From Microcaldota archaeon (lineage in GTDB: Archaea; Micrarchaeota; Micrarchaeia; Norongarragalinales; UBA97), in contig JACQBR010000015.1 in the NCBI GenBank assembly GCA_016194335.1, forward strand, positions 1 to 64,000: 64,000 nucleotides of DNA, given 5' to 3'. This document shows, piece after piece, positions 32,952 through 54,913 of the stretch; the first letter of the stretch is position 1, and every line of letters starts with the position of its first letter. Made by a program: the position numbers and the translations under genes. Under the pieces are notes generated by a model. The model was not told the origin of the DNA. It did no database searches and saw nothing but the letters and a program-made list of their open reading frames with translations.

Positions 32952-33131
32952 CGAAAACCACCCCTCTTTTGCGCAAAACGCCTTTTAGCCCCCAATTCTT
33001 AATGGTCGGTTGACGATTTTAATGGTTGCCCTCAGCCGGTGCTTCCAAAGGCAGTTGCCAAGAGTATTTATTGCCTTTCGCCACCTAATTACTTGCAGCT
33101 GGAAACGGCAGCCCTGTCGTCTAGCGGCCAA

Positions 33132-33151
33132 ACCCTCTTCGAGGGGGCTTT
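33132..33151 (+). other. tRNA-Gln intron 1 (D-loop, 20 nt)
   Basis: Exon GGCC (33126-33129) pairs with intron GGCT (33146-33149). Bulges are AA/A (33130-33132) and TT/G (33150-33152). The intron stem is CCCTC/GAGGG with a TTC loop. This is a textbook BHB in miniature. Confidence 0.8.
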
Positions 33152-33167
33152 GGATATCTGGCTTTGG

Positions 33168-33207
33168 TAAAGCAAGTCTCGTTTTTGGAGATATTGTTTT
33201 TGAAGTC
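33168..33207 (+). other. tRNA-Gln intron 2 (anticodon loop 37/38, 40 nt)
   Basis: Central helix CTTT/GAAG, bulges GG/T and TC/A, intron stem AAAGCAA/TTGTTTT. Position 37/38 is the canonical site. Confidence 0.88.
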
Positions 33208-33228
33208 ACCAGAGGACAGCGGTTCGAA

Positions 33229-33326
33229 CGAGGGACGTCGCAATTTTTCTCCTCGCCCGTCATGGGCTCGTCGATAAAATTGCTCGTGCCCCTCGACCCC
33301 CATAAGGTCGCGGGCCCTCCCGAAAA
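33229..33326 (+). other. tRNA-Gln intron 3 (T-loop 59/60, 98 nt)
   Basis: Central helix TTCG/CGAA, bulges AA/C and AA/T, then intron stem GAGGG/CCCTC with one extra C on the 3' side. The interior is GC-rich and could fold further. Confidence 0.8.
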
Positions 33327-33383
33327 TCCGCTCAGGGCTACTAATCGTTTCTGCAATGTTTCTAAGACGGAGAGTGATTTGAT

Positions 33384-33632
33384 TTGGGACGTTCTAAAGG
33401 AAAGCACATCCGGGTTCTCGCGAAGGAAGTGGTCGGCACCCTTTCCTCAACGCTGAGCGGGAAATACGCGGAGAACCACGGCAACCTCTTCAAGCTCGGC
33501 CTTTTCGAGATGAGCAAGAAGGAGTTCAACAAGCTCGTGGGCGAAGTGACGGTCTTGATGAAGAAACTTCGCGCGCCCCCCAGGCCGAAGTTCAAGAGGA
33601 TTCCCGTCGCGGCCGCGCCGAGCAGGTATTGA
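33384..33632 (+). CDS. Ribosomal protein S17e-like protein
   Basis: An 82-residue basic protein from a TTG at 33384 with a GGAGAGTGA ribosome-binding sequence just upstream. The start (GRSKGKHIRVLAKEVVG) and the pattern of a conserved N-K pair (KKEFNKLVGEVTVLMKKL) resemble archaeal S17e, whose members are 62-85 residues long. A basic Pro-rich tail follows. S17e is divergent in sequence, so other small ribosomal or RNA-binding families cannot be excluded. It starts 43 bases after the tRNA-Gln 3' end and may be read from the same promoter. Confidence 0.5.
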   Translation: MGRSKGKHIRVLAKEVVGTLSSTLSGKYAENHGNLFKLGLFEMSKKEFNKLVGEVTVLMKKLRAPPRPKFKRIPVAAAPSRY

Positions 33633-40469: not shown

Positions 40470-40585
40470 GCGCGCCCGAATTTCTCCATTCCGGAGAGTG
40501 TAGGGCTTTCTACCACTCGCTGCTTATTTTAACCCATCCCAACCAATAATCTTCAGGACAAGCGGGCCGGTAGATCAACGGCTAA

Positions 40586-40754
40586 ACCTTTTCTGCGCTC
40601 CTCGAAGCGCTCGCTTGAAAGCTCGCGTTCTGCGAACCGCGCAAGCCAGCAAATGAACGTTCGTCGTTCTGATGACTCTGGCTTGACGGTTCGTGCGGTG
40701 CTTGAAAAGCTTTACCAAAAGCTGCGAGTCAGGGTGCAAAGATTGTTTGGTTAA
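40586..40754 (+). other. tRNA-Ala intron 1 (D-loop, about 169 nt)
   Basis: Exon GGCT (40580-40583) pairs weakly with GGTT (40749-40752). Bulges AA/A and AA/A. Same site as in tRNA-Gln and tRNA-Val. The exact ends are a guess within one or two bases. Confidence 0.65.
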
Positions 40755-40771
40755 AGATCGCCTGCATGGCA

Positions 40772-40805
40772 TTCCCTAATGTTTTGCAACAACCGTGGGG
40801 GCCGA
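40772..40805 (+). other. tRNA-Ala intron 2 (anticodon loop, about 34 nt)
   Basis: Helix TGGC/GCCG with a 1x2 internal loop next to the anticodon stem and an ATT bulge; intron stem CCC/GGG. A relaxed BHB. Borders uncertain by a base or two. Confidence 0.6.
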
Positions 40806-40848
40806 AGCAGGAGGTTGCGGGTTCGAATCCCGTCCGGTCCACTAAGCC

Positions 40849-40901
40849 CTTTTCTTTCTTTGCTCGCTCATAACGCAATTCGCTCGTCAAAGAAAGAAAA
40901 G
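40849..40901 (+). repeat. 14-bp perfect inverted repeat after tRNA-Ala
   Basis: CTTTTCTTTCTTTG (40849-40862) and CAAAGAAAGAAAAG (40888-40901) are perfect complements with a 25-base loop. Purine/pyrimidine-biased. A further AAAAGAAAGAAG stretch follows at 40911-40922. May be a terminator, processing signal or DNA cruciform. Confidence 0.6.
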
Positions 40902-40947
40902 CCCTTGGGGAAAAGAAAGAAGCGTTGACGGAAAACATTTCGCCTCG

Positions 40948-41463: not shown

Positions 41464-41571
41464 GGGCCCATAGTCGAGTGGTTAAGTCCCTTTGGCACCA
41501 AACTGCTCGGGGGAGGCTTAGACGTTCGCTTGACGTGCGAAAGACCGCCGGTCCGATTCCGGCTGGGCCCA
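41464..41571 (+). tRNA. tRNA-Val (GAC) with a D-loop intron
   Basis: GGGCCCA (41464-41470) pairs with TGGGCCC (41564-41570), discriminator A. D-stem GTC/GAC (41473-41475 and 41521-41523), anticodon stem TTCGC/GCGAA with loop TTGACGT (anticodon GAC), T-stem GCCGG/CCGGC with loop TCCGATT. One 35-nt intron (41486-41520) in the D-loop. The T-loop has C at position 55 where T (pseudouridine) is normal. TATA-like GCTTAAATC at 41423-41431. Confidence 0.9.
41486..41520 (+). other. tRNA-Val intron (D-loop, 35 nt)
   Basis: Exon GGTT (41480-41483) pairs with intron GGCT (41515-41518). Bulges AA/G and TA/G; intron stem TCCC/GGGA. Canonical BHB, same site as in Gln and Ala. Confidence 0.82.
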
Positions 41572-43440: not shown

Positions 43441-43532
43441 ATAGCAAATCGCATTAATTCTGGAACTTTAGTAGGTGCGATTTGCAACTAGCGGATTGCT
43501 GGCAATGTTTCATTATTTATGCAATCCGCTAT
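43441..43532. repeat. Double-hairpin repeat, copy 1 (92 bp)
   Basis: Two consecutive stems: GCAAATCGCA/TGCGATTTGC and TAGCGGATTGC/GCAATCCGCTA, with T-rich loops (ATTCTGGAACTTTAG; TGGCAATGTTTCATTATTTA). Almost identical to copy 2 at 45112-45202. The end abuts the stop codon of the NusA-like KH gene (43532-43534, minus strand). Confidence 0.85.
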
Positions 43533-45111: not shown

Positions 45112-45202
45112 ATAGCAAATCGCATTAATTCTGGAACTTTAGAAGTGCGATTTGCAACTAGCGGATTGCTGGCAATGTTTCATTATTTATGCAATCCGCT
45201 AT
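45112..45202. repeat. Double-hairpin repeat, copy 2 (91 bp)
   Basis: Same two stems and loops as copy 1. The only differences are in the first loop (TTAGAAGTG against TTAGTAGGTG): one deletion and one substitution. It lies just downstream of the decayed RelE gene (stop at 45222) on the minus strand. Confidence 0.85.
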
Positions 45203-54687: not shown

Positions 54688-54724
54688 CACTAACAATAAG
54701 CCGTCCGGCGTATAAAAACAGGAG

Positions 54725-54913
54725 CGCGGGAGGGGGGACTCGAACCCCCGGAGAGCTTGCGCCCTAACAGGTTAGCAACCTGCCGCCATTTGTGAATCTT
54801 ACTCCCGTAGCTTTTCGCAGCTTTTGGTCAAGCTTTTCGGAGCAGCGCAGAAAATGAGCTGCGGCGAAATTTTCGAGCAGCGAGGGAAAGGTTGGCCGCT
54901 AGGCGACTCCCGC
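54725..54913 (-). tRNA. tRNA-Ser (GCU) with a D-loop intron
   Basis: Read on the minus strand, GCGGGAG (54913-54907) pairs with CTCCCGC (54732-54726), discriminator G. D-stem GCC/GGC, D-loop TAGCGGCCAA, anticodon stem GCAGG/CCTGT with loop TTGCTAA (anticodon GCT), class II variable arm AGGGC-GCAA-GCTCT, T-stem GGGGG/CCCCC. A D-loop insert of about 103 nt separates GGCCAA from the GGC of the D-stem. TATA-like TATTTAATTTATT at 54936-54950 places the 5' end at about 54913. Confidence 0.88.
54788..54891 (-). other. tRNA-Ser intron (D-loop, about 103 nt)
   Basis: Begins after the same GGCCAA motif as the other D-loop introns. The pairing of GGCC with the intron end is not evident, so the splice junction is relaxed or misplaced by a few bases. 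Internal CTT/AAG and CCC/GGG pairs suggest a stem at its ends. Confidence 0.65.

Follow-up and report, generated by a model that had tools for sequence, protein, structure and literature searches.

The window, meaning the whole stretch of 64,000 nucleotides that was analysed, carries a gene for tRNA-Gln(UUG) (33110-33339, forward strand) in which four colinear exons within 230 nt are separated by three introns. It is very probably a working Micrarchaeota tRNA gene whose BHB introns are spliced in cis, whose T-loop intron has a core copied from or to other tRNA genes, and whose lineage tolerates the spread of such introns because of its splicing endonuclease EndA. The window's genome (G000) is a fragmented, Micrarchaeota-like draft of 85.4% completeness and was compared with four other genomes of the family (G001-G004).

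Anatomy of the tRNA-Gln(UUG) gene

Exon 1 (33110..33131, + strand like all parts of the gene) supplies the 5' strands of the acceptor stem and the D-stem and the D-loop up to position 21, where intron 1 (33132..33151, 20 nt) interrupts the loop at 21/22 with the central helix GGCC/GGCT, the bulges AAA/TTG and the inner helix CCCTC/GAGGG. Exon 2 (33152..33167) continues with the 3' strand of the D-stem, the 5' strand of the anticodon stem and the anticodon TTG to position 37; it is followed at the canonical site 37/38 by intron 2 (33168..33207, 40 nt; central helix CTTT/GAAG, bulges GGT/TCA, outer helix TCTGG/CCAGA). The 3' strand of the anticodon stem, the variable loop, the 5' strand of the T-stem and the T-loop to position 59 form exon 3 (33208..33228), behind which intron 3 (33229..33326, 98 nt) lies at 59/60 with the central helix TTCG/CGAA, the bulges AAC/AAT and the outer helix AGCGG/CCGCT; this intron belongs to the dispersed family A described below. 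Exon 4 (33327..33339) contributes position 60 and the 3' strands of the T-stem and acceptor stem, followed by the discriminator A at 33340. The gene is neither split nor permuted, its exons lying neither at separate loci nor in non-linear order, and its downstream neighbour is rps17e for ribosomal protein S17e (33384..33632, + strand; identified by eye from the sequence, with an approximate start).

The initial annotation had proposed three introns in the D-loop, the anticodon loop and the T-loop, whose removal would leave an intact tRNA, and both proposals are borne out. The spliced product measures 72 nt (73 with A33340), does not encode CCA and is called as tRNA-Gln(ttg) by ARAGORN; the unspliced locus receives no call from ARAGORN or Rfam. 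A continuous tRNA-Gln(UUG) elsewhere in the genome had been named as the finding that would overturn this reading. Neither a continuous nor a fragmentary second copy, nor any tRNA-Gln(CUG), was found in the assembly, which is 85% complete so that the missing part could hold a further copy.

BHB junctions

Several lines of evidence place the three junctions above chance. When 270 bases were scanned for BHB geometry without any knowledge of the tRNA, 44 candidates emerged, and introns 3, 2 and 1 took ranks 1, 2 and 3 among them, respectively. When the intron letters were shuffled between the fixed exons in 20,000 trials, the observed BHB scores were reached at frequencies of 0.00010, 0.00025 and 0. 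The same introns of 20, 40 and 98 nt were recovered when the continuous tRNA-Gln(CUG) of a relative was aligned to the locus with splicing allowed and BHBs ignored. Folding the full precursor to minimum energy gave, unprompted, the motif helices at 37/38 and 59/60 and, at the D-loop, a relaxed version. The earlier description of every junction as a near-perfect BHB needs small corrections for two of them: the D-loop motif has an outer helix of just 1 bp in strict BHB register and is better described as HBh'-like and relaxed, and in the T-loop motif the inner helix is shifted by one unpaired C. Taken with the complete spliced tRNA and the genes for EndA and RtcB, a BHB or relaxed BHB at every junction gives the locus the features of sequence and gene content expected of BHB introns.

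Splicing enzymes

A single EndA is encoded on contig C23 (about 20.5-21.8 kb) in an open frame of 431 codons, and its residues 50-431 align with residues 10-387 of the 395 residues of ARMAN-2 EndA (E 9.5e-124). The suggestion to inspect endA for a broad-specificity form thus led to an enzyme of the epsilon2 type with the three-unit alphaN-alpha-betaC chain, matched over its full length by ARMAN-2 EndA, and its broad specificity is predicted from this likeness. Residues Y278, H293, K324, Y203, K204, R317 and W428 correspond to Y236, H251, K282, Y160, K161, R275 and W384 of ARMAN-2, so that both the catalytic Tyr/His/Lys (Y278, H293, K324) and the ARMAN-specific loop Tyr-Lys (Y203-K204), which is needed for cleavage (PMC12397907), are conserved. 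The closest named relatives come from Micrarchaeota groundwater genomes (77%, 67% and 64% identity); relatives at 53-77% identity are Micrarchaeota, and a Thermoproteales host is not indicated. RtcB is present as well (E 2.2e-172). In the proposed pathway the pre-tRNA would fold so that a BHB or relaxed BHB forms at each junction, the epsilon2 EndA would cut the six bulge sites and RtcB would join the exons. At the 5' border of endA (C23:20562-20624) stands, in inverted orientation, a relative of the intron that interrupts the T-loop of Leu(UAG).

The syntenic locus in related genomes

The tRNA-Gln(UUG) gene lies upstream of rps17e in G000, G002, G003 and G004 and holds 3, 2, 0 and 1 introns, respectively. 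It is continuous in G003, and in G004 its single intron at 37/38 matches the site of intron 2. In G002 the introns occupy the D-loop and T-loop sites seen in G000 and have central helices that are identical or almost so; the T-loop intron has only 34 nt as opposed to 98 nt. These shared positions suggest that the D-loop and T-loop introns are probably older than the split from the genus of G002. G001 offers only a 14-nt match to the gene. The spliced 72-mer is 86% identical over its full length to a continuous tRNA-Gln on C11 of G002, which is the CUG form and not a spare UUG copy. Direct reading reveals paired stem changes between G000 and G002, namely T7-A66 against C7-G66 and a T-stem of AGCGG/CCGCT against GGCAG/CTGCC, as would be expected of a working tRNA. 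In G004 (C16:1341-1540) a second copy of the last 22 nt (GGTTCGAATCCGCGCGGGGCTA) stands directly behind tRNA-Gln(UUG), which hints that tandem duplication of the 3' exon might be one way for a T-loop intron to form.

tRNA set and intron load of the genome

Rfam detects 16 tRNAs in G000 at E <= 0.001 and gives 25 matches at E <= 10, compared with 39-42 in G002-G004. The shortfall is explained by introns, as emerged when the mature tRNAs of G002 were aligned to the loci of G000 with introns allowed; the standard tRNA model overlooks about half of the tRNAs of this genome. The alignment reconstructed about 34 tRNA genes, in a census that is incomplete since it drew on searches and short stretches: about 10 are intronless, 13 have one intron, 7 have two and at least 4 have three. 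The total of about 39 introns is approximate, some boundaries being uncertain. The four genes with three introns are Gln(UUG) (20, 40 and 98 nt), Met(CAU) (24, 46 and 43 nt), Arg(UCG) (97, 60 and 145 nt) and Arg(CCG) (97, 38 and 109 nt). The T-loop intron had been regarded as a rarity, a view that has to be given up, as 59/60 is a listed intron position of archaeal tRNAs (PMC4090602) and ten introns of G000 occupy it.

Partly resolved genes include Gly(UCC) at a contig end and the locus at C18:10844, whose T-loop intron, but not its 5' half, could be reconstructed, and the junctions of Ser(GCU), Leu(GAG), Leu(CAA) and the D-loop of Ala(GGC) are weak or ambiguous. The window itself contains further examples: tRNA-Ala(GGC) (40564..40843, + strand) has a D-loop intron of family B (40583-40754, 172 nt, boundary relaxed) and a 37/38 intron (40773-40806, 34 nt), tRNA-Val(GAC) (41464..41571, + strand) has a D-loop intron of 35 nt (41486-41520), and tRNA-Ser(GCU) (54724..54913, - strand) has a D-loop intron of family B with a weak BHB (54790-54893, 104 nt). 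A splice search that combined BHB detection with ARAGORN produced many spurious Ala/Ser combinations, and aligning the mature tRNAs of relatives with introns allowed worked better. Two candidates were dropped, a three-intron tRNA-Glu at C8:104558 with BHB scores at noise level and a second intron in Ala(UGC) that proved an alignment artefact.

Dispersed intron families

BLAST comparison among the introns of G000 defined three families (A, B and C), which were absent from the first reading because they are visible only genome-wide. Family A comprises the 59/60 introns of Gln(UUG) and Ser(UGA), the 37/38 intron of Ser(UGA), the 59/60 T-loop intron of the tRNA-like gene at C18:10844 and, more weakly, the 59/60 intron of Lys(CUU). 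The 98-nt T-loop intron of Gln is 87% identical to the 98-nt T-loop intron of Ser(UGA) over 98 nt, 93% to the anticodon-loop intron of Ser(UGA) over 69 nt and 96% to the intron at C18:10844 over 72 nt. Within the family one A-T pair of the core stem is replaced by G-C (CAATTTT/AAAATTG vs CAGTTTT/AAAACTG). It is the core that is shared, and the outermost bases, which form the central helix, suit the exon in which each copy sits (TTCG/CGAA in Gln, CTTG/CAGG in the Ser anticodon loop). A search for family A in other genomes of the order gave nothing beyond an 18-nt match.

Family B introns occur at D-loop, anticodon-loop and T-loop sites in Ala(CGC), Ala(GGC), Lys(UUU), Ser(GCU), Leu(CAA), Gly(CCC), Arg and Leu(UAG), and family C introns in the D-loop of Ile(UAU) and the T-loop of Leu(UAA). 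Families B and C also have members that are not tRNA introns; these lie within the gene for RNase P RNA, at C2:73061, just upstream of endA and in the 3' flanks of tRNA genes. With its family A copies at 59/60 of Gln(UUG), 37/38 and 59/60 of Ser(UGA) and 59/60 of C18:10844, G000 shows almost the same intron at more than one site and in tRNAs that differ in identity, as in the large-scale tRNA intron transposition known from Thermoproteales.

Alternative explanations and origin of the introns

A decayed pseudogene struck by repeats, whose functional counterpart would lie elsewhere or in the part of the genome that the draft lacks, is a very unlikely account of the locus. Insertion of a repeat into the T-loop would normally destroy a tRNA and the draft has gaps, yet all stems are intact, with changes relative to G002 that compensate each other, all three junctions form BHBs far above chance, the assembly holds no further tRNA-Gln fragment and the place beside rps17e is conserved. 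Less credible still is a misassembly in which repeat-rich intron cores were wrongly joined: family A copies do share stretches of about 60-70 nt, but the Gln copy differs by 13% from the nearest full-length copy, the four exons join into a single tRNA and synteny with the relatives is preserved in the flanks. Self-splicing group I or group II introns are the least plausible of these readings. In their favour, some archaea do have group I introns, and PMC6125680 mentions Micrarchaeota. Against them, the ribozyme core of either group takes hundreds of nt; the introns at this locus, at 20-98 nt, are too short for it, the Rfam scan of the locus gave no intron match and every junction has BHB geometry.

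How the introns came to resemble each other is less settled. Gene conversion between existing short introns, with no new gain by a mobile element, could account for the likeness on its own and is a serious contender, although we lean somewhat against it. It would fit the T-loop intron of only 34 nt at the same site in G002, and BHB-forming ends that match their own tRNA around a shared core; the members of families B and C outside tRNA introns speak against it. In the reading that we prefer for the gene as a whole, three BHB introns spliced in cis, the T-loop intron of the G000 lineage would have acquired, or would itself be a copy of, the core of about 70 nt that family A has in other tRNAs. 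A copying process, by insertion or gene conversion and at the DNA or RNA level, has probably distributed introns among the tRNA genes; the lineage would tolerate them since this EndA type is known as permissive and relaxed recognition would keep the tRNA alive. The core might have moved into short pre-existing introns such as the one in the T-loop of G002, or a whole element might have been inserted and its ends adapted later, and neither route is strongly favoured. A broader idea, which we put forward tentatively and hold to be rather doubtful, is that the tRNA introns are mobile elements: short palindromic sequences would invade stable RNA genes (tRNAs and RNase P RNA) and gene borders, and would survive in tRNAs in the form of introns, since they are cut out there by the permissive epsilon2 EndA.

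Comparison with known systems

The closest parallel is found in Thermoproteales (Pyrobaculum), which likewise have three BHB introns in one tRNA at canonical and non-canonical positions, as in tRNA-Pro(UGG) of P. islandicum (25/26, 37/38 and 56/57; PMC4090602), a broad-specificity EndA (in G000 a predicted property) and introns that resemble each other between different tRNAs (Fujishima et al. 2010, cited in PMC4033280 and PMC4090602). They have a mean of 0.84 introns per tRNA gene, compared with 0.21 in archaea, with a maximum of 71 introns in the 46 tRNA genes of Pyrobaculum calidifontis (PMC8450103). They differ in belonging to another phylum and in having an (alpha-beta)2 EndA instead of epsilon2, and G000 stands apart in its positions 21/22, 37/38 and 59/60 and in having intron-family members outside tRNAs. 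ARMAN-1 and ARMAN-2 (Micrarchaeum acidiphilum) share with G000 the phylum, the epsilon2 EndA with the ARMAN-specific loop residues and multi-intron tRNAs (PMC4033280; PMC12397907); neither of these two papers reports for ARMAN a tRNA with three introns or families of copied introns. The listing of multi-intron tRNAs for these Micrarchaeota (PMC4033280) also qualifies the earlier view that three-intron tRNAs are mostly a matter of Thermoproteales and foreign to DPANN-like genomes. According to PMC9602550, tRNA-Ile(UAU) of Cyanidioschyzon merolae has introns in the D-, anticodon and T-arms like the Gln gene, in a eukaryote (red alga) that presumably gained them independently.

Already on record, then, are three-intron tRNAs, position 59/60, the copying of introns between the tRNAs of Thermoproteales and, for ARMAN, multi-intron tRNAs; G000 is ordinary in mechanism and unusual in host and extent. 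An outbreak of introns like this one has so far been described mainly from another archaeal order, for which we know of no established route of transposition. Searches of full-text literature, with few subscription papers and without the primary ones of 2008-2011, turned up neither three-intron tRNAs nor intron families for Micrarchaeota or DPANN. A second case of intron proliferation, in a distant phylum and with a differently evolved permissive EndA, offers a natural setting in which to test whether tRNA genes become accessible to introns once EndA is permissive, and the series of 0, 1, 2 and 3 introns at one syntenic locus, together with copies outside tRNAs, makes the mechanism of gain approachable.

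Related elements in and around RNA genes

The RNase P RNA gene of G000 (C21:6106-6467, minus strand) contains a family B insert of about 95 nt that is absent from G002 and G004. Its ends form one continuous helix rather than a BHB, which was looked for by eye only, so that the insert may stay in the mature RNA. A family C element of about 83 nt with 94% identity to the D-loop intron of Ile(UAU) lies in an intergenic position directly after a stop codon (C2:73061-73143), and hairpins resembling family C stand directly behind tRNA-Ala(GGC) (40844-40924 of the window), Ile(UAU) (C18:77008-77083) and Ala(UGC) (C21:14971-15050). The tRNA-like gene with the family A T-loop intron spans C18:10705-10980, and two further introns may lie in its D and anticodon regions. 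In the window, a segment of about 92 nt also occurs twice as a direct repeat (43441-43532 and 45112-45202), its copies 1670 bases apart and 97-100% identical in their two parts.
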